This document shows positions 8,177 through 46,202 of a DNA stretch of 64,000 nt, piece after piece (the first letter of the stretch is position 1; every line of letters starts with the position of its first letter). The translations under genes and the position numbers were made by a program. Origin of the DNA: Limosilactobacillus coleohominis 101-4-CHN (lineage in GTDB: Bacteria; Bacillota; Bacilli; Lactobacillales; Lactobacillaceae). The notes beneath the pieces are model-generated. The model saw only the letters and a program-made list of their open reading frames with translations. It was not told where the DNA came from and ran no database searches. The stretch is taken from NCBI RefSeq assembly GCF_000161935.1, contig NZ_GG698802.1, forward strand, positions 320,594-384,593, in the 5' to 3' direction.

Positions 8177-8210
8177 GTTAACGACTCCTTTCCATTTAAA
8201 TAATATTCAA

Positions 8211-11108
8211 TCATCCGTGCCGACGATTCATTATAATCGTAATCATCGCCCACAGGAATGTCCAGATCAAACCAATTAAGGAGGCGATTGCCCCGAGTTT
8301 TAACCCTGGAATATGGTAATGCAGTACCACGTGGTGCGTTCCCTTCGGAAGCCGAATACCTACGAATGCTTGATTGGTCCGAATAATCGCTGCCTTTTTC
8401 CCATTCACTGTAGCGGTCCAACCAGTTGAATACGGAATTGAGGAGGTCAAAATCCCGGTCCGGGTAGTTGTGATATTACCAGCCACTTGATTTGGACTAA
8501 ACTTAAGGTTCTTGAGACCATGCCGTTGAATCGTTCGGACTTGATTCTGGTAGTGATGACCTAATCTAACGGCAGTGACTTGATATTTCAGTTGATATGT
8601 TCCCAGCTTAGTCGGTTTAAACGTTAATTTTTCGGAGAATTTACCATTGTAATAACCAATGTTAAGGGTCCCATTTTTAACCTTCTTAAACAGTGACAGC
8701 ACACTTTGCTTAGGCTGGTCAACAGTTGCCGTTCCAAACTTACTCTTAAAATTCAACTTAAAACTAATATCTGGCGATCCGTTGAGAACGTGATAACGCC
8801 AATATTTGTACTGGTTAAAACGGTGATTAATATATTGTCCGGGATTAACCGCCATTTCCAATAAATGCTGCTGTTCGTACTTAAGCTGCTCTTTCATCGA
8901 GAATGGTGTGTACTTGATTTTAGAGAAATCAATGTGCACTTCACTACCACTTAATTGCTTCCGGTTACTGGACTTCTCCATTGCTGGAAATTGGAGTTGA
9001 TAGGTTTCATCACTATCAGTGTATTTTAAGTGGTTTGGATTGACTTTATTCAGCCGGTTTGAAATCAACACTGACTTGACCGTTTGGACAGCATTACTTA
9101 AGTCAGCAACCCGCATCCCTTTGGCGTTCTTCTGACTAGCATTGATCACCACCCCACTGGCTAATGCCCGTTCTTTAGCGGAGGCAGATAGTTGTTGGTA
9201 CCGTTGCGGACGAATATAAGTGTCTTGCCAGTATAGAAGTGGAAAGGCATTCTTCGTCTTGTAACGGATCGTCTGCGTGGGGATTAAATCCGTCTTCTTC
9301 TTCGCATCTGCTGGCTGTCCCTGGTCATAATTAATAATTGGTGCGGTTAATTGATCCTGCGTATAGCCGTACGGAATCTTAGTCGCATTATCACCATTGC
9401 TTTGAACAAACAGGTACTTCACCCCAAAGAAGTTATTAAGGACCGTCCGATCATCCGCCTGACGAATCGGGATGTTCGGTGTGTATTGAATGTTTTGAAG
9501 TGAATTACTGAATGCTCCTAGATACTTATTTTGGAGTGAGTAGTATGAATCAATGTTATTCAAGCCGGAAGTTAAGTCATTATCCCAGTTGACGCCCGGA
9601 ATAATCTTGTTTTGACTAATCGTGGACACCCGATAGAAATATTGTTGGTTTAGACCTTGGTCCAGCCCGCCGTACCGATTTTTCGTCATCGTCTGATACT
9701 CGCCACGGTTCAACATCCGACTAGAGAAGCCACCATTATACGGGAAAGCAGCATAGATGGCGTTAAATCCAGCATTTAACAAGATAATCGCCAAAAGCCA
9801 ATAATCAGGATGGTGAACACCATGTAAGTTCAAAATCCATAGGACCATCATTGAACCAATCAAGAAAAAGACTGGCATAAACATCGCATCATCATTTTGG
9901 AAAAAGTACGTGACGAGCAAAACCACCAAATAGATAATGGTCGCCCAATTCAAAATCCATAACTGATGCCGAGAAAGACTAGCGGCATTTTCTAATAAGA
10001 TACAAATTGTCATTGCCAGTGGCAGATAAATCAGTAACGTCCAACGATTAGAAGCGGACATCATCCCGTTAAAAAAGGCCCCAACTGCCGGAATGAGAAG
10101 CATCACAAATGATAAACCGAGGCTAATGGCCAATAACGGGTAACGGCGCGGTTGACTGTACAGGTAAACCAACGCAATAAAACCGATACTGACAATTCCC
10201 AGCGCCGACCAAAACATGAAGTACCACTGACCACCGTTAATCAGCTGTTTTGGTAAGAATAGATAATAGTAGAGCGGATATGTCTTCAGACCATTGGCAA
10301 ATTGAGAACCAGCCCGGGTCGAGTTCATCACCGCATTAAGTTCTGGAACAAGCAATACGGCTGCCAATAAAATGCTGGTAACCGTAGCAAAAGCTAATTT
10401 TCCTAGGACCAGCAGGTAATTGAGTGTCTTGCGATAATGGGTCGCCACCCGTAACACTAAGTATAAAAAGGCCCCAATGCCGAGAACGTAAGCCAGATAG
10501 TAGTTGCTGACCAGCATCCAGAAAAAGGCCCCCACTAGTGGCCAAGCAGAACGATTTTGTAAGACCCGTTCAATTTGCACCACAATTAAAGGAAACAGGA
10601 TAAACGGCGTCGTAAAGAACGGTTGAGCAATACATGCATATAGCAAAAATGCATTCACCATGTAAGCAATCGTTCCCCCGAGGATGACATTATCGCGGAA
10701 TCTGAAATGCTGAGCAAAGTACACAAACGCGAGTCCAACACAATACATCCGCAAAATCAAAATTACCTGATAAGCCATGGTCATCTTATGCGCGGGAAAG
10801 AGTAATGCTAAATATGAGAAAACATCGCCAAGCGTGTAATATGAATAGACTTGAAAGGTATCCGTTCCCAAACCCATTTGCCACGACCAGACCTGATGAG
10901 CATGAAATGGGCGACGGAGAAACTCTAATACCGCCTGTCGATACTTCACCATTAACGGCAAGTGTTGATTCAACGCATCCCGATTTAAAATAAAAGTATG
11001 CCCAAAAATTAAATACGTCCCAAAAATACAAGCGGCAATCATGATGAACAGCAAACTATACTTCAAATACAGTTTTTTTACATCCCGCCGTTTAAACGAA
11101 AAATCCAT
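8211..11108 (-). CDS. YfhO family large membrane protein
   Basis: Polytopic membrane protein of 965 residues. About 12 transmembrane segments fill the first half, a large extracytoplasmic domain runs from about residue 470 to 925, and a final helix precedes the basic tail. This is the YfhO (glycosyltransferase-like, GT-C type) layout; relatives help decorate lipoteichoic or wall teichoic acid. No partner flippase or undecaprenyl-phosphate glycosyltransferase lies nearby. The ATG start has GGAG nine bases upstream. Only 34 bases separate it from the UvrA-like gene, so the two may be co-transcribed. Confidence 0.82.
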   Translation of the reverse strand: MDFSFKRRDVKKLYLKYSLLFIMIAACIFGTYLIFGHTFILNRDALNQHLPLMVKYRQAVLEFLRRPFHAHQVWSWQMGLGTDTFQVYSYYTLGDVFSYLALLFPAHKMTMAYQVILILRMYCVGLAFVYFAQHFRFRDNVILGGTIAYMVNAFLLYACIAQPFFTTPFILFPLIVVQIERVLQNRSAWPLVGAFFWMLVSNYYLAYVLGIGAFLYLVLRVATHYRKTLNYLLVLGKLAFATVTSILLAAVLLVPELNAVMNSTRAGSQFANGLKTYPLYYYLFLPKQLINGGQWYFMFWSALGIVSIGFIALVYLYSQPRRYPLLAISLGLSFVMLLIPAVGAFFNGMMSASNRWTLLIYLPLAMTICILLENAASLSRHQLWILNWATIIYLVVLLVTYFFQNDDAMFMPVFFLIGSMMVLWILNLHGVHHPDYWLLAIILLNAGFNAIYAAFPYNGGFSSRMLNRGEYQTMTKNRYGGLDQGLNQQYFYRVSTISQNKIIPGVNWDNDLTSGLNNIDSYYSLQNKYLGAFSNSLQNIQYTPNIPIRQADDRTVLNNFFGVKYLFVQSNGDNATKIPYGYTQDQLTAPIINYDQGQPADAKKKTDLIPTQTIRYKTKNAFPLLYWQDTYIRPQRYQQLSASAKERALASGVVINASQKNAKGMRVADLSNAVQTVKSVLISNRLNKVNPNHLKYTDSDETYQLQFPAMEKSSNRKQLSGSEVHIDFSKIKYTPFSMKEQLKYEQQHLLEMAVNPGQYINHRFNQYKYWRYHVLNGSPDISFKLNFKSKFGTATVDQPKQSVLSLFKKVKNGTLNIGYYNGKFSEKLTFKPTKLGTYQLKYQVTAVRLGHHYQNQVRTIQRHGLKNLKFSPNQVAGNITTTRTGILTSSIPYSTGWTATVNGKKAAIIRTNQAFVGIRLPKGTHHVVLHYHIPGLKLGAIASLIGLIWTFLWAMITIIMNRRHG

Positions 11109-33740: not shown

Positions 33741-34544
33741 TCGACTCGTCATTTGGAAATAATTTTTATATAGAGATGTAAAACGGCCATGGTTAGTAGT
33801 TGCTAACCATGGTTTTTGTCGTCCACAATAGTGCAGAATCACCGTGTTTTTAATCACCCAGTCTAGGGTACATTTACCAAGCGTAATTGTTTCATATACC
33901 CGGAGATTACGAGCATCAAAGTTATACAATTCATCCGGAACGGAAAGAATGTAGCGGCCATAAAGCGCGTTTAAAACATCCTGATCTGGTAACAGGAGAA
34001 TATGGTCGCGAATATAGTCAAAAATGGCATTGGGATCAACTCGTCGGCGAATTTCATCTAAATTCATTAAGAGCACTCCCGAATTATAGTAGCCATCCGC
34101 ATCAAAATTTTGTAGACGAATTTTATTAATCACATCCGTCGCATTCGTCAGATTGGTATGAATGGCAGAAGCATACATGTAATTCTGGAGATCAATTTCA
34201 TAAAGCGGTCGCAAATCATTAATGCATAATAAATCTGCATCCAGGTACAAAATCCGGTGTAATTGCTTCGGCAAATAGAGATGCGCTAATAGCCGATAGT
34301 AAATTGTCGTGGGATAACGATCCGTAACCGGCGCATTTTTAAATGCACTTTCGGGAATCTCCACCTGGTGATAATGCATCCCTAATTTTTGACAACCGGC
34401 GGACAATTCAGCCGAATGAGTAAAATCCTTCGTCACAATGACGTACACATCAATATCATTTGCTGAAGAATTGAGGTAAATGGAGTATAAAACGGTTAGC
34501 AGTTGTTGATAAAAACGATCATCAATCGAAAATAGTAGGTTCAT
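33726..34544 (-). CDS. Glycosyltransferase family 8
   Basis: Nucleotide-sugar-dependent retaining glycosyltransferase of 272 residues. The metal-binding DxD motif reads YLDADLLCINDL near residue 100, and the C-terminal HYCGRQKPW supplies the second metal-site His. FDADGYYNSGVLLMNL is the family acceptor region. The donor is probably UDP-glucose or UDP-galactose by family; the acceptor is unknown. Standalone, with a GAGGA site before the ATG. Confidence 0.88.
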   Translation of the reverse strand: MNLLFSIDDRFYQQLLTVLYSIYLNSSANDIDVYVIVTKDFTHSAELSAGCQKLGMHYHQVEIPESAFKNAPVTDRYPTTIYYRLLAHLYLPKQLHRILYLDADLLCINDLRPLYEIDLQNYMYASAIHTNLTNATDVINKIRLQNFDADGYYNSGVLLMNLDEIRRRVDPNAIFDYIRDHILLLPDQDVLNALYGRYILSVPDELYNFDARNLRVYETITLGKCTLDWVIKNTVILHYCGRQKPWLATTNHGRFTSLYKNYFQMTSRLMQD

Positions 34545-34645
34545 AGTATCCTCCTCATCAAGATTATTATACCGAAGGACTTGCCAATCGGAAACAGATG
34601 ATTTACCCTTAATGCTAACTGGAATTAGAGAGGAAAGTAAAGATA

Positions 34646-35302
34646 ATGGAACCAGCAGAGCAGCTCGATGCTGTGAAACACTATACGATTCAAAAACTCG
34701 GTATGGATCATACCGGCCACGGTCTTGATCACATTCGCCGAGTGGTTAAAATGACCAAACGGCTGGCTAAGGATGAACAAGTCGATGAATTTATCGCTAC
34801 TGCAGCCGCTTACTTACATGACACGATTGATGAAAAACTAGTCATGAGTGTCAAAGAAGCCCAAGATGAACTGCGGGAATTTTTGCGCAAAATTGATTTT
34901 ACCCAAAATCAAATTCACGCAGTCATGGCAATTATTACTCAAATGTCGTTTGCTGATACTTTAGATGGTGAACGACCGACGTTATCACCCGAAGGCCAGG
35001 TGGTTCAAGACGCCGACTGGCTCGATGCCATTGGCGGAATTGGGATTGTCCGGGCCATCTATTTCGGTGGCAAGCATGGTGAACGGATTTATGATCCAGA
35101 AATGGCACCACGGGAAAACATGACGCGTGATGATTACCGCGACCTCCGTCACGAAACCATTATTAATCATTTTTACGAAAAGTTATTAAAAATTAAACCA
35201 ATGTTAAATACCAAGGCCGCCCAACAAATCGCCGCCCATCGTCAGCAAGTTATGCTTGACTTCCTCGATGAATTTAAAGATGAATGGGCATCAATCCGCT
35301 AA
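34646..35302 (+). CDS. HD domain phosphohydrolase
   Basis: Metal-dependent phosphohydrolase of 218 residues. The metal ligands fall at HGLDHIRRV near residue 26 and YLHDTID near residue 57, with QDADWLDAIGGIGIVR further on giving the final Asp. The layout is the YedJ/YpgQ-like group that hydrolyses nucleotides. GAGAGGAAAG precedes the ATG. The substrate is not evident. Confidence 0.88.
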   Translation: MEPAEQLDAVKHYTIQKLGMDHTGHGLDHIRRVVKMTKRLAKDEQVDEFIATAAAYLHDTIDEKLVMSVKEAQDELREFLRKIDFTQNQIHAVMAIITQMSFADTLDGERPTLSPEGQVVQDADWLDAIGGIGIVRAIYFGGKHGERIYDPEMAPRENMTRDDYRDLRHETIINHFYEKLLKIKPMLNTKAAQQIAAHRQQVMLDFLDEFKDEWASIR

Positions 35303-35343
35303 AAAAATAATCAGGAGTAAAATTTACTCCTGATTATTTTTTT
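35303..35343. terminator. Bidirectional terminator between HD gene and membrane protein gene
   Basis: AATAATCAGGAGTAAA and TTTACTCCTGATTATT form a near-perfect palindrome flanked by A and T runs. It overlaps the 3' end of the minus-strand gene at 35324. Confidence 0.92.
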
Positions 35344-35860
35344 CAACTACTTCTGTATAGTGACGTAGCCACAACGTTAATGGTGGAATTAATAAACAAT
35401 CGAGCAACCCATTGAGTAAGGCCGCTGGTAACCCCATTCCCAATATCATTGTAAAATCGTCCCATTTACTTGTAATCAATAAGGCCTGCACAAATACGAC
35501 TGCTAACATCCCAACGAACTGGCACAGCCCCGCAATCAGGCCAAAATTGATGGCCTCCGTATGACTCATATGAACCGTCAACGGCGTTTGCCAACGCAGA
35601 ATCATTGAAACGACCAATAAACTAAGTAAGATTGGCACCACGATTGCCCAATTATGAATATTTAATAACAGCATGGTAACCGCCACTACCACCAAGGTAC
35701 TATAACTTTGCAACAGGTTCATCCCTAAGGCAATAATAATCACCATGATACCGGCAATTTGAACCGTCACGGCTCCCGTTGGCAATGGATAATGCCATTG
35801 CACAAAACATAGGAGTACTGCGAAAACAGTTAGTCCGGACCATAACCCCCATTTTTTCAT
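35324..35860 (-). CDS. Hypothetical polytopic membrane protein
   Basis: About 178 residues with five or six hydrophobic helices and little else, ending in a short polar tail, LRHYTEVVEKNNQE. The helix layout is like small substrate-binding subunits of ECF transporters, but no signature settles it. Its ATG overlaps the DegV stop codon (TAATG), so the two are translationally coupled. This start is chosen over the longer frame to 35893. Confidence 0.7.
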   Translation of the reverse strand: MKKWGLWSGLTVFAVLLCFVQWHYPLPTGAVTVQIAGIMVIIIALGMNLLQSYSTLVVVAVTMLLLNIHNWAIVVPILLSLLVVSMILRWQTPLTVHMSHTEAINFGLIAGLCQFVGMLAVVFVQALLITSKWDDFTMILGMGLPAALLNGLLDCLLIPPLTLWLRHYTEVVEKNNQE

Positions 35861-36735
35861 TATAATGGCTTCTTTCTGGTATCCTGCATCCACCCTAGCG
35901 CAAGAGCTCCTTGACCAAGGTGGACACCAATGACTGGACCAAAATATGACAATTCAAAATCAATGTCAGGATGTTTCTCTTGCAAATCAGCAAGCCACTT
36001 TTGCCCTGCCTCTTCAGCTGCGGCGTGGAAAACGTATGCCCGAACCGGATAATCAGTCTTCGCTAGGGATTCATCAAAAATCTGTTCAACCCGAAGCTTT
36101 GCTTTCTTCATTGAGCGCACCTTTTCAAACGCCTCAATTGCATGGTTGGGATTATCAAATGACAATAATGGCTTAATGCGCAAAATGGAACCAACAAAAG
36201 CTGACGCGTTAGATAAACGACCACCCCGTACCAGATTTTGTAAATCGTCAACTACAAAATCGTCATGAATGGTTGCTCGTAACTTGGTTAATTTATCGAC
36301 GATGGTATCTACATCATCACCCTGGTCGACAAGTTTTGCGGCTTCAATCGCAATTTGCCCCATCAACTTAACCGTGATTTGCGAATCAAATGGCACAATC
36401 TTGATGGTGTCTTTCATCTGCTCCGCGAGCAATTGGATGTTATTTAAAAAGCCAGAAATACTCTTCGCCAAGTGAATACTAATAACCGCATCATAGCCTT
36501 CGTCTGCCAACTTTTGGTACAATGCCATCATTTCACCAATTGGTGGCTGCGAGGTACTTGGAAAGGTTTTTGAGGTTTTTAATTCACGATAAAAATCTTC
36601 TGTCGTGATGTCAACGCCCTCTTGATAATCTTTACCGTCAATCGTAAACGGGATCGGGACGACATGGATATGATAATCCGCAACTTCCTTTGCGGTTAAG
36701 TATGCTGTACTGTCGGTAACAACCGCAATTTTCAT
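35860..36735 (-). CDS. DegV family fatty acid-binding protein
   Basis: Fatty acid-binding protein of the DegV/FakB family, 291 residues. The N-terminal VVTDSTAYLTAKEVADYHIHVVPI and SQPPIGEMMALYQKL segments, the loop SISGFLNNI, and the C-terminal GPVIGVHLGQGALALGW are all family marks. FakB proteins hold an acyl group for a FakA kinase, which is not in this window. ATG at 36735 has TTGGAGGA upstream. It is coupled to the downstream membrane protein. Confidence 0.9.
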   Translation of the reverse strand: MKIAVVTDSTAYLTAKEVADYHIHVVPIPFTIDGKDYQEGVDITTEDFYRELKTSKTFPSTSQPPIGEMMALYQKLADEGYDAVISIHLAKSISGFLNNIQLLAEQMKDTIKIVPFDSQITVKLMGQIAIEAAKLVDQGDDVDTIVDKLTKLRATIHDDFVVDDLQNLVRGGRLSNASAFVGSILRIKPLLSFDNPNHAIEAFEKVRSMKKAKLRVEQIFDESLAKTDYPVRAYVFHAAAEEAGQKWLADLQEKHPDIDFELSYFGPVIGVHLGQGALALGWMQDTRKKPL

Positions 36736-36864
36736 TGTTATTTCCTCCAAATATGATTTTCAAAATGATTTTAATGTAAATAATTGCTTTATTTTTGAAC
36801 TCAATAATACTAAAAAAATACCATATCTTGCTTGATATGACAATCATTAATTAGCTTACAGTGT

Positions 36865-36893
36865 TTTACTGGATTCGTCAAAAAAGGTATAAT
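36865..36893 (+). promoter_or_regulatory. SigA promoter of rqcH
   Basis: TTTACT at 36865-36870 and TATAAT at 36888-36893 are 17 bases apart. The box continues as GGTATAATAGCACGTA, the same 16 bases as in the recU promoter at 58925-58940. Confidence 0.7.
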
Positions 36894-36927
36894 AGCACGT
36901 AAATGTCTAAAAAGGAGGATCTACCCA

Positions 36928-38613
36928 ATGGCTTTTGATGGTTTTTTTACCCATGCAATGGTTAAAGAACTCAATGATACATTACAAACTGGTCGAGTGA
37001 TGCGCGTTAATCAGCCGTATCCAGCCGAAATGGTGATGGTTGTACGGGCACACCGCCATAATTACTCATTACTGGTTTCTGCGAACCCATCCTACCCCCG
37101 AGTCCAACTAACCACCATTCCTTATCAAAATCCGGCAGTGCCAAGTAATTTTGCGATGACAATGCGCAAATACCTTGAAGGGGCCATTATCGAATCAATC
37201 GAACAGGTTGAAAACGACCGAATTGTGAAAATTAACTTTACCAACCGCGATGAACTCGGTGATAACCAAAAATTGGTTATTTATATTGAAATTATGGCCC
37301 GCCATAGTAATGTTTCGTTAGTCAGTGAACCCAATTGCAAAATTATTGAGACAATTAAACATGTTGGTTCAGACCAAAACCGGGTCCGAATCCTATTGCC
37401 GGGAGCACCATTTGTGATGCCACCAAAACAAGAACGAACCAATCCCTACCTGCCTAACCAAAAGTATTCTGATCTCGTTCGTCAATATCAAAAAGATCTT
37501 GATGGTCTGGCACATGCCCTTCAGCAAACCTACCAAGGATTGGCACCAGCAACGGCTCACGAATTAGCCAGTGAGCTGTTGACCGCTGATAACCTGCCAA
37601 CTGCTTATGAACAGTTTATTAATCACTTCAACCACCCAACACCAACCATTCTTACCAATGACCATGGTAAGAAGTCATTCATGGCCTTTCCGCCAGTTGA
37701 TCATCAAGGTTCACTGCAAACATTTCCGACTTTAAGTGCCATGCTTGATACCTTTTACGCCCAAAAAGCGGAAAGCGACCGGACAAAGGAACTCGCTGGA
37801 CAAGTTTTAAAAGTTGTTAAGAACGAACTCAAAAAAGATCGTCGCAAGGTAAAAAAGCTGCATCACCAACTCTCTGAAGCTGCGGATGCAGACTATTACC
37901 GGGTCCGGGGTGAAATTTTGACCACCTTTATGGGCAAAGTTAAGGCCGGGATGACTGACATTGATCTGCCGAACTTCTACGATAATAACCAGCCGTTACA
38001 TATTAAGCTAGCACCGGAGCTTTCCCCATCTAAGAACGCCCAAAAATACTTTACCAAGTACGATAAACTGAAGGACTCCGTTGCGTACGTGAATGAGCAA
38101 TTAGCACTGACACAAAAGGAAATCGACTACTTTGAAAATATATTGAGCCAAATTGAAATTGCCTCCCCCGCCGATGTTCAAGATATTAAGGTCGAACTCC
38201 AAGAACAGGGCTACATTAAACAACGGAATAAAGGTAAGAAGAAGCGTAAAGTTCGTACCAGCAAGCCAGAAGAATTTCATGCTAGTGACGGGACAACCAT
38301 TTTGGTTGGTAAAAATAATTTGCAAAATGATCGCTTAAGTTTTAAGACCGCTAATAAGAATGAATTTTGGTTCCACGTTAAGGATATACCGGGCTCTCAC
38401 GTAATCGTCCGGAGTACAGCACCAACAAACGAAACGATTCAAGAGGCCGCAGAGCTGGCCGCCTATTTCTCCAAGGGACGTAATTCGGATCACGTTCCAG
38501 TGGACTACCTACGGGTCAAACAACTGCATAAGCCAAATGGTGCTAAGCCTGGTTTCGTTATTTTTCGGGGGCAGAAAACACTGAGCGTGACTCCTAAATT
38601 ATTACAAAAATAA
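36928..38613 (+). CDS. rqcH: Rqc2/RqcH homologue (NFACT protein, fibronectin-binding type)
   Basis: Ribosome-quality-control factor of 561 residues; in Bacillus it drives C-terminal alanine tailing of stalled peptides on 50S subunits. The NFACT-N domain starts MAFDGFFTHAMVKELN and continues to about residue 210; a helical coiled-coil arm with many Lys lies at about 280-410; NFACT-R carries FWFHVKDIPGSHVIVR near residue 480. AAAGGAGG precedes the ATG. Older annotations call it fibronectin-binding protein. Confidence 0.93.
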   Translation: MAFDGFFTHAMVKELNDTLQTGRVMRVNQPYPAEMVMVVRAHRHNYSLLVSANPSYPRVQLTTIPYQNPAVPSNFAMTMRKYLEGAIIESIEQVENDRIVKINFTNRDELGDNQKLVIYIEIMARHSNVSLVSEPNCKIIETIKHVGSDQNRVRILLPGAPFVMPPKQERTNPYLPNQKYSDLVRQYQKDLDGLAHALQQTYQGLAPATAHELASELLTADNLPTAYEQFINHFNHPTPTILTNDHGKKSFMAFPPVDHQGSLQTFPTLSAMLDTFYAQKAESDRTKELAGQVLKVVKNELKKDRRKVKKLHHQLSEAADADYYRVRGEILTTFMGKVKAGMTDIDLPNFYDNNQPLHIKLAPELSPSKNAQKYFTKYDKLKDSVAYVNEQLALTQKEIDYFENILSQIEIASPADVQDIKVELQEQGYIKQRNKGKKKRKVRTSKPEEFHASDGTTILVGKNNLQNDRLSFKTANKNEFWFHVKDIPGSHVIVRSTAPTNETIQEAAELAAYFSKGRNSDHVPVDYLRVKQLHKPNGAKPGFVIFRGQKTLSVTPKLLQK

Positions 38614-38643
38614 AGGATTGGGAATATTCCCAATCCTTTTTAT
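38612..38643. terminator. Terminator between rqcH and the carB-like gene
   Basis: AAAGGATTGGGAATATTCCCAATCCTTT is a near-perfect palindrome followed by T. It serves both convergent genes. Confidence 0.92.
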
Positions 38644-41153
38644 TCTATAAACTGCATTTCTGCACCCATCACTTTGAGCGCCGTTGGCGGTTCCTTGATT
38701 TGCAATGCCTTGAACGGGAATAATGCCCGATAGACGGCTGTCCGTTGTTGTGACGGCTGCTTTTCCATTGAGCGTTGCAATAATTTACCGCTAAACTTAT
38801 TAATCGCCAAACGAGCAAGCACTGCGGATAAATCTAATTGCAAAACCTTTGATAGGAATGCAATGTCCGGAGCCGGCAAAGAGCGCACCATTTGGACCTG
38901 GTAATTGCCAAGCGGATCGGTTTTCAACAAAACCTGATAAAGTCCAGGACTGGTTAGCTCACGGACCGATTGCTCACCGAGTGCCATGACCTTTTTGACA
39001 TCAGCTGGCGCTAAGGTGGTTGGATAACGCTTAGCAACGGTCCGATAGTTAAGCTGGTCATCTGCTTGCAACGCAGCCGTCATTCCCAATGGATAAACGT
39101 ATTGACCGTCAAACAAGGCATTATACTCCAAAAGTGGTTCATTGCTGACCACATCCTCCAACTGATCTGCCGTTGGAATAGTGAGTAGCGGCATGGATTC
39201 CGGTAAATGCTTTCGTAAACGTTCTAATAGCTCACCTTGATTGGAAGCCACCATCACCTTGGCCGGATTTTCCACCCGCACAATATCCATAACCGTTTCG
39301 TTCGTTAATGGTTCAACATACCGTTTATCTGAAAACAAACTGGCCATGGTCGGTGAACTAGGATTATCGTTAACCAGCACGATTCGGTAACCATGGTTAC
39401 GTAATTCGTTCATCACCCGACTAATTACATAATCATTAGCATTTCCATTACCAAGTCGGCGGGGACCACTACCAACGACTAAAATTGGTTGACTATCTCC
39501 TGGTCGGCTTTCATTTTCAATTTCAAACGTAGAATAGAAAGTTCGTGAATGCTGATCAAATTCCCCCGCCGATGGATCAACTTCTTTAAATGTTCGGTTA
39601 ATCTGATGCTGTTCGCGTAAACTGAAAATTTGCTCATCATTGGTCTCCCATAATTCCGCAATTTTTCCATCATCAAATCCCCAATACTTAGCCTCTTTCA
39701 GTACCGCCGGGCTTTCTTTCAACTGCCGAATTTCCGTCTGAATTTTTAACAGGCGATTAAATTGCGCTAAATAATAGCGGTCAATCTTGGTTAACTCTGC
39801 TAATTCTTTTTCTGAATATCCCCGACGAATCGCTTCAATTAACGAATAAAGCCGGTCCCCATGGGGATGGATAAGCAGCTGGTCCAATTGATCGTCACTA
39901 ATTCCGTGCATCAATTTGGCCTGGCCATTATGCCATCCAAATTGATAATCCGCGTTCGCTTTAAGTAATGCTTCAATTAAACTGCGGCCAATCCCGATTG
40001 TACTACCGACTGATTTTTTCTGGGTACCCAATTTCTGATTGTTAACGGTTAGTTGGCTAAAAGGAAAAACTGGCATCCGGACCGCTGTCCGATCCATCAC
40101 TGGTTCTGTGACCGCCGTATGCTTCGTTAAACCGTGATCCAGGCGAATATTCCTCAGTAGTTCCCCGGCATATAAATGGCCAACGACCCGACTCACAGGA
40201 TAACCCGTCGCAATTTCAGTAAACGTGCTAATGCGATCAAAGTATGGACTATTTTTGATTACATAGTAGCGATTTTGGTGGGGATCAAAAGCAAACTGCA
40301 CATGATTAATGCCAACGATCCGCAGTTTTCGAGTAATCGCAAATGCCGTATTCCGCATATCTTGAATGTTACGATCCAATAACGTTTGCGCTGGTAGAAC
40401 AGTGATTGAATCACCAGCATGGATCCCAATTGGATCAATGTCTTCAGCAATCCCGAGGCACATCATATTACCTGAGGAATCGCGCATGACCATGACTTCA
40501 ATTTCTTTTAATCCCGCTAAGCTTTGTTGAACCATTACCTGACCGCTACGCGACATTTGAATTCCCCGACTAACGGCAGTTCGTAACTCTTCACTATCCT
40601 GCACAATTCGCCGCATCCGGAGTGATTTGGGAAAGACAGCACGGACCACCACTGGAAAACCAACTGCCCGTGCCATTTCTAATGCTGCCTGATAGTTATC
40701 CACCGTGGCAATCTTTTTCGTTGGTGCCTGTAAACGCCGCAACGTCTGGTTTAATAACATTGGATTATTAACCTGGCGAACTGTCGCTTCAGGTACCCCT
40801 GCAATCCGAATATCGTTCTCAGTTAAAATTCCTGATTCACCAACCGTTTGAAGAATTTCAAAAGCGCGACGACCGCCAAGCGTTGGCACAATCAGCTGCG
40901 GATGACGTTGATTAATCACATCAATAATGCTCTGGGCAGTCAGTGGCAAAATATAGCGTTGCGTAATTGCACTCGTTGTATCGAGTGACGTCGAAAATGG
41001 ATTATCATCCACTAGAACGGTTTCAAAACCGGCTTTTTGCAAGGTCTTCCCAACTTCTAGAGTTGCATAGTCTAGTTCGCCACCCTGCTGTAAGTTGTCA
41101 CTCCCAGCACCAATAATCAAAGCTGTTGGTTTACTTTCAGCCAAAATCTTCAT
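38640..41153 (-). CDS. Degenerate carbamoyl-phosphate synthase large-subunit homologue
   Basis: CarB-like protein of 837 residues (canonical about 1,060). Several segments still match CarB: GIHAGDSITVLPAQTL, LVNDNPSSPT, FPFKAL. But the first ATP-grasp site lost its Gly-rich loop (KSLRMRR instead of TMGGSGGG), and the metal site VIEVNPR became VIKNSPY near residue 297, replacing Glu and Asn. The second ATP-grasp domain is largely deleted and its EVNPRASR motif is QMVRSLPA. The allosteric domain is absent; the protein ends at GAEMQFIE. The reading frame is otherwise intact. It overlaps the carA-like stop by 17 bases. Catalysis is not expected. Confidence 0.85.
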   Translation of the reverse strand: MKILAESKPTALIIGAGSDNLQQGGELDYATLEVGKTLQKAGFETVLVDDNPFSTSLDTTSAITQRYILPLTAQSIIDVINQRHPQLIVPTLGGRRAFEILQTVGESGILTENDIRIAGVPEATVRQVNNPMLLNQTLRRLQAPTKKIATVDNYQAALEMARAVGFPVVVRAVFPKSLRMRRIVQDSEELRTAVSRGIQMSRSGQVMVQQSLAGLKEIEVMVMRDSSGNMMCLGIAEDIDPIGIHAGDSITVLPAQTLLDRNIQDMRNTAFAITRKLRIVGINHVQFAFDPHQNRYYVIKNSPYFDRISTFTEIATGYPVSRVVGHLYAGELLRNIRLDHGLTKHTAVTEPVMDRTAVRMPVFPFSQLTVNNQKLGTQKKSVGSTIGIGRSLIEALLKANADYQFGWHNGQAKLMHGISDDQLDQLLIHPHGDRLYSLIEAIRRGYSEKELAELTKIDRYYLAQFNRLLKIQTEIRQLKESPAVLKEAKYWGFDDGKIAELWETNDEQIFSLREQHQINRTFKEVDPSAGEFDQHSRTFYSTFEIENESRPGDSQPILVVGSGPRRLGNGNANDYVISRVMNELRNHGYRIVLVNDNPSSPTMASLFSDKRYVEPLTNETVMDIVRVENPAKVMVASNQGELLERLRKHLPESMPLLTIPTADQLEDVVSNEPLLEYNALFDGQYVYPLGMTAALQADDQLNYRTVAKRYPTTLAPADVKKVMALGEQSVRELTSPGLYQVLLKTDPLGNYQVQMVRSLPAPDIAFLSKVLQLDLSAVLARLAINKFSGKLLQRSMEKQPSQQRTAVYRALFPFKALQIKEPPTALKVMGAEMQFIE

Positions 41154-42219
41154 CTCCTCGCTGATTCATGAGGTCCATGAACTCATCAAATAATGGATCG
41201 GTTTCATCAGGACCTGGCGCACCATCCGGGAAGAATTGAACAGAAAACGCCGGATATTGTCGGTGACGAAGCCCTTGAACACTATTATCAAGCAAGTCAA
41301 CGTAAGTAATAAAAAGCTTTTGCCGATCAACACTTTCCCGATCCACTTCAAAACCGGCACTTTGACTAGCATAATCAATCTGATCAGTAATAATTTCCTT
41401 AATCGGGTGGTTCATTCCATGATGTTCTACCGGGCGCCGTTTGACAGCTGCACCGTTAGCCATGGCAAATAATTCATGTCCTAAGCCAATCCCGAACACT
41501 GGCACGTGCTGCTGAACTTCTTGAATCATTTTCAAGACTGATTTTTTTAAACTATGCGGATCACCTGGACCACTAGAAAAAACGACTCCATCTGGATCCA
41601 GCCGCAGAATTTCGTCAGCAGTCGAAGTGTATGGTAAAACGGTAACGTTACATTTTCGACGAGAAAGTTCCCGTAAAACCCCATTTTTGAGTCCAAAGTC
41701 AATTACCACAACCGTCTTGCCGACGTCAGGGTTAGGATATGGTTTTGGCGTCGCTACTTGGGCCACCTGCTGATTAGTTAAGACTGTCGCGTGAAGTTGA
41801 TCAAATGCATGGTCATCAGGAACCGGAACAATACTCCCCCGGATGGGTTCAGTGGCGGAACGCAATTTATGAACGAGTGCCCGTGTATCAACGTTCGTAA
41901 TTCCAGGAATATTCATTTGCTGGAGATAGTGACTGAGACTCTGGCGGTGCTGGTCATCAAATGCCGCCAAATCGCGCACAATCACGCCTTTAGCTGCTGG
42001 AACGATTGATTCGTAAATATTCCGGTTAATTGGCACATTGCCAACATTCGGTTGGGTGAAAACAATAATTTGGTTGTCATAGATGGGGTTCGTAATAATC
42101 TCTTGGTAACCAGCCATACTGGTATTAAAAATCACTTCACCAAAAGTGACCGCTGGTGAACCAAAGCCATCACCGGCATAAACCGATCCATCTTCCAAAA
42201 TTAAATAACGGGCTGTCAT
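41137..42219 (-). CDS. Degenerate carbamoyl-phosphate synthase small-subunit homologue
   Basis: CarA-like protein of about 360 residues with the usual N-terminal domain (ARYLILEDGSVYAG, FNTSMAGYQEI) and a class I glutamine amidotransferase fold (SSGPGDP). The catalytic Cys of GICLGHQ is Gly here (GIGLGHE near residue 243, also losing the Gln), and the His-x-Glu of HPE is FPD near residue 329. All three triad residues are thus gone, so glutamine cannot be hydrolysed. ATG at 42219 has GGTGA seven bases upstream; the longer frame from 42240 has none. It follows the rluD-like gene in the position where pyr operons begin in many lactobacilli. Confidence 0.87.
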   Translation of the reverse strand: MTARYLILEDGSVYAGDGFGSPAVTFGEVIFNTSMAGYQEIITNPIYDNQIIVFTQPNVGNVPINRNIYESIVPAAKGVIVRDLAAFDDQHRQSLSHYLQQMNIPGITNVDTRALVHKLRSATEPIRGSIVPVPDDHAFDQLHATVLTNQQVAQVATPKPYPNPDVGKTVVVIDFGLKNGVLRELSRRKCNVTVLPYTSTADEILRLDPDGVVFSSGPGDPHSLKKSVLKMIQEVQQHVPVFGIGLGHELFAMANGAAVKRRPVEHHGMNHPIKEIITDQIDYASQSAGFEVDRESVDRQKLFITYVDLLDNSVQGLRHRQYPAFSVQFFPDGAPGPDETDPLFDEFMDLMNQRGDEDFG

Positions 42220-42269
42220 TGAAATTTCACCTTCTGTCAATTAGTACCTTTTTCATTCTACACCACATT

Positions 42270-43196
42270 TTAATTTGTTCGTGGCAAATCTGTTTGATCC
42301 AAGTGCTTTAACATTTGCGCAAACCAAGTCGGTAAAGGTGCTTCAAACACCATTTCCTTACCTGTAACCGGATGCTTAAAGCCCAACAAACGAGCATGTA
42401 AATACTGGCCATTTCCCTTCAATGTTTTCCGTGGTCCATACAACGGATCACCAGCCAGCGGATGACCAATATATTTCATGTGAACCCGAATCTGATGAGT
42501 TCGACCGGTTTCTAATTTGCAGGCAACTAATGTGTAGTGTAGGTATCTTTTAAGTACCCGAAAATGGGTTACCGCTGGTCGACCGTCGGCCACGACTGCT
42601 TGTTTCTTACGATCCTTGGGTGATCGGCCGAGCGGGGCATCGATGGTGCCCTGGTCTTCTTTGATCACGCCATGAACCAGTGCTACATATTCACGTTGAT
42701 TAGTTTTCGCCTTTAATTGCGCCGCTAATGAACGGTGGGCCCGATCATTTTTAGCGACCATTAATAATCCTGAAGTGTCCTTATCAATCCGGTGTACGAT
42801 TCCTGGGCGATATTCACCATTAATATGCGATAGAGGACAGTGATACAATAGTGCATTCACCAAGGTATGGTTAGGATGACCCGCAGATGGGTGAACCACC
42901 ATTCCCTGTGGTTTATTAACGACCAAGACATCATCGTCTTCATAAACAATTTCTAAGGGAATATTCTCGGGTTCCAAATCAATTTTTTGCGGTTGTTCAG
43001 GAATCACTTGAACAATATCGCCTGCTTGAAGATGGTATTTTGGTTTTACAGACTGCTTATTTACCGTCACGTTACCATCCTCAATCCATTTTTTTATTTG
43101 TGAACGAGACACATCAGATAAGAGCGTGGCTAGTTGTTTATCAATCCGTCCAGTCTCTTGAGCACTAATCTTTAGTTGGGTTGGTTGATTCGGCAT
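42270..43196 (-). CDS. RluD-type 23S rRNA pseudouridine synthase
   Basis: RNA pseudouridine synthase of about 309 residues of the RluA/RluD/YlyB group. An S4 RNA-binding domain (RSQIKKWIEDGNVTVN) comes first, then the catalytic domain with HRIDKDTSGLLMVAK, where the Asp is catalytic, and GRTHQIRVHMKYIGHPLAGDP. ATG at 43196 is preferred for the AAGGGAA seven bases upstream. The start overlaps the lspA stop. lspA followed by this gene is a common Firmicutes pair. Confidence 0.92.
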   Translation of the reverse strand: MPNQPTQLKISAQETGRIDKQLATLLSDVSRSQIKKWIEDGNVTVNKQSVKPKYHLQAGDIVQVIPEQPQKIDLEPENIPLEIVYEDDDVLVVNKPQGMVVHPSAGHPNHTLVNALLYHCPLSHINGEYRPGIVHRIDKDTSGLLMVAKNDRAHRSLAAQLKAKTNQREYVALVHGVIKEDQGTIDAPLGRSPKDRKKQAVVADGRPAVTHFRVLKRYLHYTLVACKLETGRTHQIRVHMKYIGHPLAGDPLYGPRKTLKGNGQYLHARLLGFKHPVTGKEMVFEAPLPTWFAQMLKHLDQTDLPRTN

Positions 43197-43668
43197 TACG
43201 ATTCCCTTCATCCTTCTCTAACAACACAATGATAATTAAAATCACGACACCAACGGTCAAACAAGCGTCCGCAATATTAAATACGGGAAAATTAATTGGC
43301 ATTAATTCAAACATATCAATGACATATCCAAAGCGGAGTCGATCGATGAAATTACCAATTGTTCCGGCAAAAATCAAACTAAAGCTCAATTCAACGAGCC
43401 ATTGGTCCTTAAACCGGTGCATTAGATAAATCAAAACAGCAATGGCAATAATGCTGACAATGGCAAAAAACCATTGCTTGCCTTCTAATAATGACCATGA
43501 CGCACCATCATTCCGCAAGTTGGTTAATTCCACGAGTCCTGGAATTAATGGGCGGGTTTGGTTATGTAAAATGTTATTTGCTACCCACCATTTTAATAAT
43601 TGATCAGCACCAATTAAAAAGACAACCACCCCACAGTATGGCAGCCAGTTAAGTTTATTATTTTTCAT
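43165..43668 (-). CDS. lspA: Lipoprotein signal peptidase (signal peptidase II)
   Basis: Cleaves the signal peptide of diacylglyceryl lipoproteins in the membrane. Four transmembrane helices lie in 167 residues. The catalytic Asp pair is in GNFIDRLRFGYVIDM and FNIADACL. QLLKWWV follows the first helix. It is just after the EbsA-like gene and overlaps the pseudouridine synthase gene. Confidence 0.95.
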   Translation of the reverse strand: MKNNKLNWLPYCGVVVFLIGADQLLKWWVANNILHNQTRPLIPGLVELTNLRNDGASWSLLEGKQWFFAIVSIIAIAVLIYLMHRFKDQWLVELSFSLIFAGTIGNFIDRLRFGYVIDMFELMPINFPVFNIADACLTVGVVILIIIVLLEKDEGNRNAESTNPTKD

Positions 43669-44065
43669 CGTCTTTAATCACCCCATTGGCACGCAACAGA
43701 TGTTGGATGGATCGCAACGAGCGTTCAGTAAATGAAAAAGTCATTACCTCGCCTTGGACTGTAATTGTCATTGTGTGCTTCGTAAATAATGGTTGTCGAA
43801 TCTCCTTCGTTGGAATCACCAAGTATTCCTTTACTAATAAGCGGTTAAAAACCATCTTGCTTGGTGAGATTACTACCGTCCGACGGAAAATCTGCAAAGC
43901 AGCTACGACTAAGAATGCCGCAATAAAAGTTGCCGTAATCCATTGAAAATGGGTAATCTCAAATGCAATAATGATCCCAATGATTAGAATAATGAGCGTC
44001 CAACTCCAATCAATGATCGCTGTTGTTAAATCAGGTTGGTAAAAATACCGTTTTTGTTCTTCCAT
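43658..44065 (-). CDS. EbsA-like membrane protein
   Basis: Small membrane protein of about 135 residues resembling the EbsA family of enterococci and lactobacilli. Two hydrophobic helices (about residues 18-40 and 43-62) are followed by a soluble domain, RTVVISPSKMVFNRLLVKEY. ATG at 44065 has AAGGAG seven bases upstream. It overlaps the start of lspA by 11 bases. The family function is unknown; the name comes from neighbours of pheromone-response genes in enterococci. Confidence 0.75.
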   Translation of the reverse strand: MEEQKRYFYQPDLTTAIIDWSWTLIILIIGIIIAFEITHFQWITATFIAAFLVVAALQIFRRTVVISPSKMVFNRLLVKEYLVIPTKEIRQPLFTKHTMTITVQGEVMTFSFTERSLRSIQHLLRANGVIKDDEK

Positions 44066-44097
44066 TTTGTTCTCCTTCAAAGTATGAGGTTTTAAAA

Positions 44098-44487
44098 ATG
44101 ATTAAATTATTTACAGATGCTGCTACCAAAGATAACCCCGGCCCGACTGGACTGGGAGCCGTGATTCTGGTTGATGGGCAGCAAATTCAATTAACTGATC
44201 ACGTCAAAAATGCCAGTAATCACACTGGTGAATTTCTGGCAGCACAATTTGGTTTTCAGTACCTAATCGAACACTATTCTCCAAATGAAGTCGTGCTCTT
44301 TTATACTGATAGTCGCCTAATGAGTGATGCCATTGGCAAACACTACAGTAAACATTATGCAGACCAACTTAATTCTTTAGAATCCTTAATGCAACACTTT
44401 TCAACCGTGATTACTCAGTGGATTCCAGAAAAAGAGAATCATGGTGCTCACCATCTTGCTAACCAAGCACTCCGGCAAATTGAATAA
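44098..44487 (+). CDS. RNase H-like protein (reverse transcriptase-like family)
   Basis: RNase HI fold protein of 129 residues. It has FTDAATKDNPGPTGLGAVI with the first catalytic Asp, GEFLAAQFGFQYL with Glu, and FYTDSRLMSDAI with the second Asp. The final His/Asp is in ENHGAHHLANQAL. It may remove RNA in RNA:DNA hybrids or be a relative with no known substrate. ATG at 44098 has GAGG upstream; the longer frame overlaps the ebsA-like gene. Divergent from ebsA. Confidence 0.87.
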   Translation: MIKLFTDAATKDNPGPTGLGAVILVDGQQIQLTDHVKNASNHTGEFLAAQFGFQYLIEHYSPNEVVLFYTDSRLMSDAIGKHYSKHYADQLNSLESLMQHFSTVITQWIPEKENHGAHHLANQALRQIE

Positions 44488-44597
44488 CTACCTTCCAGTA
44501 TAACAAAAAGCATTCTGAATAAGGACGCGTTTACTTAATTTTCAACTCAAAAAGCAAAAAAATAGGCAACCCAAGGGTCCAAAATCTCCGGGCCTGT

Positions 44598-44875
44598 CTA
44601 TTTCTCTTGTAAGGCAACTAATTTGGCATAGTAACCATGCTGTTTCATTATTGGTTTTTGTGTTTGGTGATTATTCTTATTATTACCATTGCTAAACTTG
44701 ATGACGTCAATGGGATAACGCTCTCCTTTTGAAACTCTCAGCGAATGCTTTTTGCTAGTCAATGAATAATTTGAACCGCCTGATCCATGATTACCTTTAT
44801 CGGTATGAGGCTTAAAACCATACCGCATTTGCGGATGATACGTCGGTAAATGCTTATCACGTAAACATTTTCATG
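44598..44875 (-). pseudogene. Phage DNA methyltransferase (N4/N6 type), C-terminal fragment
   Basis: The open stretch contains TYHPQMRYGFKPHT, then GERYPIDVIKFSNGN and HQTQKP, the conserved region before the FxGxG binding motif in DNA N4-cytosine or N6-adenine methyltransferases. After QKP the frame diverges (IMKQHGYYAKLVALQEK) and the catalytic part (DPPY) is gone. With the fragments that follow it marks a decayed prophage. Confidence 0.65.
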
Positions 44876-44955
44876 CGTAGACGAAACTGGCTTGTCTATG
44901 CTCCCACCAAGAAACGTTAGCACTTTCCGTGCGGATATGAGTAAACACACGAAAA

Positions 44956-45028
44956 CGCAGACAACAGGGCTCGAACCTGTGACCCTCTGATTAATAATCA
45001 GACGCTCTACCAACTAAGCTATGTCTGC
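44956..45028 (-). tRNA. tRNA with anticodon ATT (Asn by code, unusual)
   Basis: A full 73-base cloverleaf. The acceptor stem pairs GCAGACA with TGTCTGC, discriminator G. The D-arm is GCTT AGTTGGTA GAGC. The anticodon stem pairs TCTGA with TCAGA around loop TTATTAA, giving anticodon ATT, and the T-arm is ACAGG TTCGAGC CCTGT. CCA is not encoded. By code ATT would read AAU (Asn), but bacterial tRNA-Asn normally has GTT. Much of the body looks like tRNA-Lys. It lies at one edge of the prophage remnant. Confidence 0.85.
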
Positions 45029-45324
45029 ATAATTAGCAGTGTTCCACGACTGCTAATAATTGTTGCTGCTAAACCTGTGAAAGCTAGGCAACGGGCTTTT
45101 GGTTCAGGCGGCGCTAGACCAGCAGAAACACCAATTTATAAGCATAACCATAAATTAAGTCAGGAAAGAAATTTAGCATTTATTTGGAGTATTTTGTTAC
45201 GACTTCAACCAATCCGTGGTTACTGGTCTTGAACCTTTTAACGACTTGCTCAGGTCAAATCTTTAATCTTTTCAACAATACCAATATACTGCTTCGAGTG
45301 TCGGCTCAGTGTCGGTTTTTCGTC
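45029..45324. other. Degenerate region inside prophage remnant
   Basis: Nearly 300 bases with no convincing gene. A short inverted repeat (AATTAGCAGT/ACTGCTAAT) begins at 45031. An open stretch on the plus strand runs to TGA at 45230-45232 and reads in part PVKARQRAFGSGGARPAETP; it has no recognised family. Read on the minus strand it is the decayed tail after the ArpU-like gene. Confidence 0.4.
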
Positions 45325-45788
45325 CTACTTTGTCGGTAAATCGTCCGATTTTTCAATTCTCACATGAAAATCTGGAATAATTGCTGAATTAACATGGTAA
45401 ATTTCGCAGCCGGTTTCAACTGTATCAGTGAACTCCCAGCACGCATCATCATCTAATGAATAATACTTATCCCGTCCGCAGTTGAGTAGTCCCACCATTT
45501 GATAAAAATATAACGATTTTCAAGGATTAACCGTGCGTCATGAGAACAACATTTTACAGCGAAATCAACGGCTCACTTAGCATTGTTATAGTCAACGTAA
45601 GTTAGAAATTTTAGTTCTGATGAATTACCAGCACCGCCGCCCGGCACCCCAGTTATATCCATACTTGGGGAGTGCAGTCCCCAGTCTCCAGCTCTTCGAC
45701 AAATTCGTTCGTACTTATCATCGTCATAAAAGAAGTCACGAACTTGGTCGATGGTAGCTTACTTATCAATTTCTGGTAAAAGCCTCAC
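45325..45788 (-). pseudogene. ArpU-like phage transcriptional regulator, broken
   Basis: From GTG at 45788, with AAAGGGGAG upstream, the frame reads VRLLPEIDK, stop, then VRDFFYDDDKYERICRRAGD, then a stop after DYNNAK, and AVDFAVKCCSHDARLILENRY. A frame change near 45490 is needed to continue into NCGRDKYYSLDDDACWEFTD. These match the ArpU family that controls late phage packaging genes. At least two in-frame stops and one frameshift make it dead. Confidence 0.7.
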
Positions 45789-45923
45789 AACAGCACTCCC
45801 CTTTGTTATAATTATTTTTGATTGATATTTAGGGAAGTCGTCCATTGTGACGGCTTTTTTGTTAATCTTCAGTAATCGCTACAAATAACATAAAGATTAA
45901 TCAGCCAATAACCCAGTCGTGAA

Positions 45924-46202
45924 CATGATAATGAATGGCAACACCGATTAACATTGCAACGGCAAGAGTTCTTAAACCAACGTCTGCGCAACGCTAAACG
46001 TGATTTACATATTAACAAGCCATTAACCACCCATATCTTTAGGCACACTCACGTTTCAAAATTAGCTGAATTAGAAGTACCATTATATATAATTCAAAAC
46101 CGATTAGGCCATGCTGACTCGTCAACCACTCGTGACGTTTATTTACACATCACAGAAAAAATTAAACAGAAATATGACGATACTATTTTCAGCTTAAAAT
46201 AA
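45924..46202 (+). pseudogene. Tyrosine recombinase (phage integrase), C-terminal fragment
   Basis: Open stretch ending at 46202 with the catalytic end of a phage integrase: THIFRHTHVSKLAEL carries the His-x-x-Arg box, and RLGHADSSTTRDVYLHIT carries the Gly-His and nucleophile Tyr. The N-terminal arm-binding and core domains, and the first catalytic Arg, are missing; the frame is closed by a stop just upstream. It is the remains of a prophage integrase and lies about 900 bases from the tRNA. Confidence 0.8.

Follow-up and report, generated by a model that had tools for sequence, protein, structure and literature searches.

The synthesis of pyrimidines and of arginine begins with carbamoyl-phosphate synthetase (CPS). 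The urea-cycle enzyme CPS I has an amidotransferase domain without the Cys nucleophile, keeps both ATP-grasp sites and the activator domain, and is active. A structure of its switch has reportedly been obtained (PMC4655335). Here we describe a second, apparently dead CPS kept by a gut Limosilactobacillus: the paired genes carA′ and carB′ of Limosilactobacillus coleohominis 101-4-CHN, in a stretch of 64,000 nt from contig NZ_GG698802.1 (assembly GCF_000161935.1, positions 320,594 to 384,593) that we call, in its whole length, the window.

Set beside CarAB of Escherichia coli (PDB 1BXR/1C30), the window pair has the same folds and the same domain order up to residue 654, with best local identities of about 35% for CarA′ and 31% for CarB′, but it is without the nucleophile, the His, the metal ligands, the Gly loop, the second ATP-grasp core and the allosteric domain. 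The CarB′ model also matches the fold of CPS I (PDB 5DOU; TM 0.85), and the amidotransferase Cys is absent from CarA′, as it presumably is from CPS I; unlike in CPS I, neither ATP site is intact in the window CarB′. The nearest precedent within the pathway is a dihydroorotase that is inactive and assembles with class A aspartate carbamoyltransferase (ATCase) into a dodecamer (PMC6022934). It is likewise a dead enzyme of the same pathway retained in a complex, but it is a different protein, and its partner ATCase is missing from many of the genomes considered here.

As judged from sequence comparison, this CPS copy has lost its glutaminase and synthetase residues, is intact across most sampled genera and is under purifying selection. 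The pair is likely a pseudo-synthetase complex selected for a non-catalytic role, probably ligand binding or regulation, and CarA′ and CarB′ are likely still to fold, pair and act without making carbamoyl phosphate. Titles and abstract openings in an open-access library yielded no description of a dead CPS pair. If our reading is right, the pair is an apparently overlooked conserved protein complex of the pseudoenzyme type, in bacteria that form a large group, have been studied well and are eaten widely.

Loss of catalytic residues in both subunits

CarA′ has the Pfam CPS small-chain and amidotransferase domains and passes the NCBIfam small-subunit models with full-length homology (NF009475, 409 bits against a cut-off of 221; TIGR01368, 355 bits against 307). 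Because the small subunit passes these curated models, automatic annotation is expected to call the pair carbamoyl-phosphate synthetase. The fold is modelled with confidence by AlphaFold (pLDDT 88.2, pTM 0.88). Where the E. coli protein reads GICLGHQ and GHPE, CarA′ reads GIGLGHE and FFPD, and the alignment gives the substitutions C269G, Q273E, H353F and S47I; we take the catalytic and ligand roles of these positions to be those of the E. coli enzyme. The nucleophile has thus changed from Cys to Gly, as the original prediction, made from the window alone, had said, and the Cys269–His353 catalytic pair is missing (Gly269, Phe353). That prediction also counted the third triad residue as lost. 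Position 355, however, is Asp in 66 of 81 distinct Cys-bearing CarA sequences, including the canonical CarA of this genome (HPD), and because Asp355 is normal in live Lactobacillales CarA, the losses in CarA′ come down to Cys269 and His353. Glutamine, one of the ligands first suggested, is spoken against by the alignment: S47, Q273 and N311, which we take to hold glutamine in E. coli CarA, are all changed in the window protein.

CarB′ scores below the NCBIfam large-subunit cut-offs (TIGR01369, 503 against 1027 bits; NF003671, 501 against 599 bits); the canonical CarB of the same genome reaches 1540 and 1590 bits, respectively. Pfam recognizes two pre-ATP-grasp stretches, one ATP-grasp domain and the oligomerisation domain, and finds neither a second ATP-grasp stretch nor an MGS domain. 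The protein aligns to E. coli CarB residues 9–654, and the approximately 180 C-terminal residues beyond are most likely a remnant of the second half. In its AlphaFold model (pLDDT 89.5, pTM 0.91), which among solved structures best matches E. coli CarB (1c30_A; TM 0.87 by query length; identity 26%), as in Pfam, the C-terminal allosteric domain is absent and so is most of the second ATP-grasp core. At positions 129, 169, 215, 243, 285, 299, 301, 303 and 306 of the first ATP-grasp site, live enzymes carry R, R, E, H, Q, E, N, R and R and CarB′ carries P, R, E, H, Q, K, S, Y and R: Q285 is retained, E299K, N301S and R303Y give the sequence VIKNSPY, and the Gly loop is gone, reading FPKSLRMRRIV. 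Residues, Pfam and fold therefore agree with the earlier description of CarB′ as having lost the Gly loop and the Glu/Asn metal site, most of the second ATP-grasp domain and the whole allosteric domain. Both frames are nonetheless long, open and undamaged, as had been noted, and overlap by 17 bases on the minus strand in an open-reading-frame check of the window; the overlap may couple their translation.

Retention at the ancestral pyr-operon site

This genome (G000, 1.73 Mb) also carries a canonical carAB, about 44 kb from the dead pair (C12:406321-410579). Its tested catalytic residues are all in place, and it belongs to an operon of the order pyrR–pyrB–pyrC–carA–carB–pyrD. The nearest named relative, Candidatus Limosilactobacillus excrementigallinarum, has proteins 99% (CarA′) and 97% (CarB′) identical to those of the window. 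Since relatives carry the dead pair at the same locus, it is not a local oddity.

We sampled 151 Lactobacillaceae genomes from 40 genera (genera, genomes and loci are labelled g, G and L). CarB homologues in them fall mostly into two size classes, of about 800–900 and about 1055–1080 residues, among the matches listed. A dead pair occurs in at least one genome of at least 32 of the 40 genera, a count that combines a CarB homology search, DNA-pattern scans for the Gly motif and for the Cys motif, and homology searches in 69 chosen genomes; g7 was admitted on a pattern match and a short CarB frame alone, the g40 second copy was left out, and Gly-motif matches without CarA in the fetched stretch (L155, L156, L158 and L219–L223) were dropped. 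From an order-wide Gly-motif scan, whose pattern is blind to the GMGLG form of Streptococcus, four genomes outside the family (G559, G462, G417 and G508) were also left out.

Where the flanks are covered (some are too short), the dead pair mostly lies after rluD, which is the upstream neighbour in most such loci, and before rqcH, in the layout lspA–rluD–[pyrR]–carA′–carB′–rqcH; the Weissella loci have rluD, with rqcH absent from the flank covered. The g10 and g21 loci read rluD–pyrR–pyrP–carA′–carB′–rqcH. Live carAB lies downstream of lspA–rluD in Vagococcus and Streptococcus suis, and the pyr operon of Bacillus subtilis, we take it, likewise follows rluD. Gene order thus identifies the dead pair as a carAB copy left at the ancestral site of the pyr operon. 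The same neighbours could be read differently, as reflecting a structural or RNA- and translation-linked role unrelated to pyrimidines: lspA, rluD and rqcH recur across genera, the window pair follows rluD by 29 bases with no pyrR beside it, and a PyrR-binding site was found in only 1 of 19 Lactobacillaceae pseudo loci tested. Descent from an ancestral pyr operon, still visible in g10 and g21, already explains this gene order, and we regard such a role as rather unlikely.

Several copies are less eroded than that of the window. The g10 copy (L154, G010, 6472-10754) is dead but full length, and Ala has replaced both catalytic Glu residues of its CarB (299 and 841). The two g21 copies (L212 and L213, in G021 and G089) have a full-length CarB with an intact-looking first ATP site, keeping nine of nine tested residues, a degenerate second site, and a CarA that has Gly269 and has lost both Cys and His. 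One semi-dead copy in g33 (G033, L236 7237-11561) keeps Cys269, has Leu353 and Asn355, and is paired with a full-length CarB with Ala at both catalytic Glu positions; it is possibly a snapshot of early loss. An apparent CarA–CarB fusion in g37 was discarded, since a stop separates the carA frame from that of carB. Tetrahydrofolate riboswitches (Rfam RF01831) lie near the locus in three genera (L163 2003-2103, L164 9650-9744 and L161 2681-2778).

Purifying selection on the pair

We calculated Nei–Gojobori dN/dS for 25 pairs per gene. Pairs with saturated dS (3 of 25 for carA′ and 4 of 25 for carB′) were dropped, as was L061/L062, whose dS is close to 0. The ratio is 0.009–0.041 over the 21 usable carA′ pairs and 0.014–0.098 over the 20 usable carB′ pairs, similar to the neighbouring genes rluD (0.008–0.084) and rqcH (0.028–0.047; saturated pairs and L061/L062 set aside). 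Further, within the family, every relative examined at the rluD locus falls short of a complete catalytic set. Even the copies with the least erosion, the full-length ones of g10 and g21 and the Cys-keeping one of g33, are each without needed residues. A ratio near 1, or related strains with intact catalytic residues at the same locus, had been proposed at the outset as signs of simple decay, and neither was found. Because dN/dS lies far below 1 and no catalytically complete relative occurs at the locus, selection on a non-catalytic role appears well supported by these comparisons.

Within Limosilactobacillus, identity to the window is mostly near 75% for CarA′ and near 46% for CarB′. With CarA′ so much better conserved, constraint seems to act mainly on the amidotransferase-like subunit.

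Pseudogene decay would have the old pyr-operon copy made redundant when a second operon took over, and now eroding. The faster divergence of carB′ than of carA′ within the genus, seen in the identities just given, fits this picture, as do the range of erosion, from full-length copies with few losses in g10 and g21 to about 660 aa in g9, and the six genera (g11, g12, g25, g29, g30 and g31) in whose tested genomes no dead pair was found. The simple form of this explanation is refuted by the dN/dS of 0.009–0.098 over usable pairs, like that of the neighbours; moreover, the residues that replace the catalytic ones are fixed in the main clade, and the pair persists in genomes without canonical CPS and PyrB. 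We consider decay very improbable in general, and we reject local decay on the grounds of dN/dS and retention.

Origins of the dead form

All 138 distinct non-Cys CarA sequences among the 219 distinct CarA examined carry Gly269, encoded by all four Gly codons. As a single step can take a Cys codon to several residues besides Gly, the repeated Gly suggests either a preference or fewer origins than the tree implies. In a 49-row CarA tree the dead label needs six changes, at least three of them forced by well-supported branches. A single origin is allowed by none of 200 bootstrap trees, from a bootstrap that had not settled, and fitted a smaller earlier tree without L154 and with fewer lineages; rooting, transfer and long branches limit any count of origins. 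Dead pairs probably arose more than once, Streptococcus and another family included.

Genus g43 is Streptococcus by CarA similarity, one member being 99% identical to S. suis, and has the Gly269 form in 11 of 24 genomes with CarA (26 searched). Each of the 11 dead copies lies near pyrR, and pyrB is the neighbour of ten of them. In ten Streptococcus genomes (L234 and L255–L263) pyrR–pyrB is followed by dead carA/carB with GMGLGAQ, GMGLGGQ or GIGLGAE, and no second CarA match was found in these ten at E 1e-20. The dead Streptococcus copies, too, have low dN/dS, 0.012–0.059 over nine genomes (28 usable of 36 pairs). Gly is present in all four genomes with CarA (five searched) of g49, from another Lactobacillales family, a biased sample because these genomes were picked through the Gly pattern; Streptococcus and most others were picked through homology. 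The apparently repeated Cys-to-Gly change, with the less eroded g10 and g21 forms surviving, is a natural experiment in which a core metabolic enzyme turns non-catalytic.

Gene content of genomes with only a dead pair

We tested for PyrB in 42 chosen genomes, 31 of which have no Cys-type CarA motif. Among these 31, 20 have no PyrB at the cut-off and 11 do, two of the latter (G036 and G120) with a second CarA-like gene. A narrower set comprises genomes that lack the Cys-type CarA motif and whose one CarB match at E 1e-50 is of the short kind; it contains 17 genomes among the matches listed. Fourteen of these, 98–99% complete, have no PyrB (G013, G015, G020, G024, G034, G041, G044, G051, G053, G060, G076, G084, G086 and G135). 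In 12 of the 13 PyrB-less genomes with the locus covered (12 of these 14, and G017), pyrR adjoins carA′. If the reading as a pseudo-synthetase holds, metabolic models and auxotrophy predictions that count the dead pair as CPS would be wrong wherever it is the sole copy.

These genomes also bear on the idea that the pair inhibits live CPS as a decoy, with CarA′ or CarB′ entering mixed complexes with canonical CarB or CarA. The retained fold and much of the architecture would suit such mixing, and many genomes have both pairs; the 17 short-pair genomes, by contrast, show no sign of canonical CPS among the matches listed, which makes a general role as partner or inhibitor of the live enzyme unlikely, and the UMP-sensing domain of live CPS is absent from the window CarB′. 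We therefore hold a decoy to be improbable.

PyrR and a possible anion pocket

Of 138 distinct dead loci, 67 have the end of pyrR no more than 150 bp from carA′, and in another 15 pyrR lies within 1.8 kb and is separated from carA′ by pyrP or pyrB; by carA′ it was not found in the remaining 56, one of which (L205) is a filter miss and some of which have short flanks. We compared 67 non-redundant short CarB′ from the main clade, out of 100. At position 299, 57 of them have Lys and the other 10 Arg; position 179 is Arg in 66 and position 303 Tyr in 61, with E215 retained in 66, G241 in 66, H243 in 65, D246 in 67 and S247 in 67. A fixed positive charge in place of the Mg ligand, together with kept ligand-side residues, looks like what would be expected of a metal-free anion pocket.

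We tentatively propose, as a possibility for the window's clade, that the first ATP-grasp site has become a metal-independent pocket in which Lys or Arg299 and Arg179 would replace the Mg ligand and the Gly loop, and which would retain E215, H243, D246 and S247. Such a pocket might bind a nucleotide or other anion and relay a signal, most likely with PyrR, so that pyrimidine salvage or synthesis would be tuned. The suggestion of a PyrR-linked sensor draws on gene order, on persistence in PyrB-less genomes and on the main-clade pocket residues; the link to PyrR itself comes from gene order.

A number of observations weigh against this proposal or parts of it. With no dead pair found in the tested genomes of six genera, it is dispensable in some lineages. 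As for the pocket, the change at 299 is not general, since Glu299 persists in most dead Streptococcus copies as well as in those of g4, g8, g21, g22 and g35, and R303, which by analogy with biotin carboxylase we take to be a bicarbonate-site residue, is replaced by Tyr in 61 of the 67 main-clade CarB′; R303Y also weakens the case for a bicarbonate sensor at the old site. As for PyrR, 45 of the 56 loci in which pyrR was not found by carA′ belong to Limosilactobacillus, Paucilactobacillus, g1 or g3, the window included, nor was it found there in g37 and g17. The Rfam PyrR-binding site RF00515 reaches its gathering score in only 1 of 19 Lactobacillaceae pseudo loci (L154, where it lies upstream of pyrR), and a PyrR leader for the window's own pair, sought at positions 34000-46000, is absent there up to E 1. 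Finally, PyrB is kept by 3 of the 17 short-pair genomes among the matches listed (G104, G094 and G028) and by six with a divergent dead pair and no Cys motif (G035, G064, G069, G043, G047 and G102), and in these nine dead-only genomes gene content is compatible with a synthetic role. Either they have another source of carbamoyl phosphate or their pairs are wrongly called dead. Since all nine show an additional transcarbamylase-like match that stays below the ATCase cut-off, an arginine deiminase route could be such a source. The Limosilactobacillus genome G104, in which the dead CPS pair is the only one found, has a pyrB–pyrC–pyrD run without carAB (L240, G104:C5:1-14000, 6691-9859).

That the pair still makes carbamoyl phosphate or a relative of it by altered chemistry, for example from ammonia, would account for PyrB over the cut-off in 11 of the 31 genomes without a Cys-type CarA motif and for the dead Streptococcus copies near pyrR (11 of 11) and adjacent to pyrB (10 of 11). 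It would also suit g21, with all nine tested first-ATP-site residues, and loss of the Cys alone is compatible with ammonia use, presumably as in CPS I. In the window's clade, however, the metal ligand is charge-reversed in 67 of 67 proteins and the second ATP-grasp core is gone; further, 20 of the 31 genomes have no PyrB, and the arginine deiminase route could serve the nine dead-only genomes that do. We judge altered chemistry to be distinctly improbable.

Returning to the PyrR-linked sensor, PyrR2 of Lactiplantibacillus plantarum is an inorganic-carbon-dependent regulator of the pyr operon and a second PyrR beside that of the operon (PMC3582564). Similarly, G071 (g38) has one pyrR next to carA′ at the rluD locus and another in its pyr operon; g38 may be the genus of L. 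plantarum, and PyrR2 may be the rluD-side gene. A link of the dead pair to CO2 control through PyrR2 is thus a lead only and, if true, a testable one on CO2-linked control of pyrimidine genes in lactobacilli. More broadly, dead CPS might form a recurrently evolved class of metabolite sensors in Lactobacillales, with repeated Cys-to-Gly change giving a GxGxG turn at the nucleophile elbow, a metal-free anion pocket in the largest clade, and joint action with PyrR on pyrimidine uptake and salvage as a possible basis of the CO2-dependent pyr control ascribed to PyrR2; taken as a whole, this generalization is speculative and, in our estimate, unlikely.

Gene layout in the window

The pair and its neighbours are listed in Table 1. 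The stem between rqcH and carB′ is a possible bidirectional terminator, in a sequence in which 10 terminator-like sites were found against 6.4 expected from shuffles.

Table 1. Features at the carA′–carB′ locus, in window positions
Feature	Position	Strand	Remarks
carA′, pseudo small subunit with amidotransferase fold	41137..42219	-	360 aa from ATG; a TTG extends the frame to 42240
carB′, pseudo large subunit	38640..41153	-	837 aa; pre-ATP-grasp 1, degenerate ATP-grasp 1, oligomerisation domain, pre-ATP-grasp 2, ATP-grasp 2 remnant; allosteric domain absent
carA′/carB′ overlap	41137..41153	-	17 bases, from gene coordinates
rluD-type pseudouridine synthase gene	42270..43211	-	upstream of carA′, 29 bases from its frame; TIGR00005 350 bits, above cut-off
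lspA (signal peptidase II)	43165..43668	-	upstream in conserved block; TIGR00077 131 bits, above cut-off
rqcH/EfbA-type gene	36928..38613	+	convergent, other border of locus; NF038240 686 bits and RqcH_arch 125 bits, both below model cut-offs
12-pair stem with T-rich tails on both strands	38612..38639		between rqcH and carB′; consensus match only

Just upstream of the lspA block lies a tRNA gene, at window positions 44956-45028 on the minus strand (Rfam RF00005, 71.5 bits).

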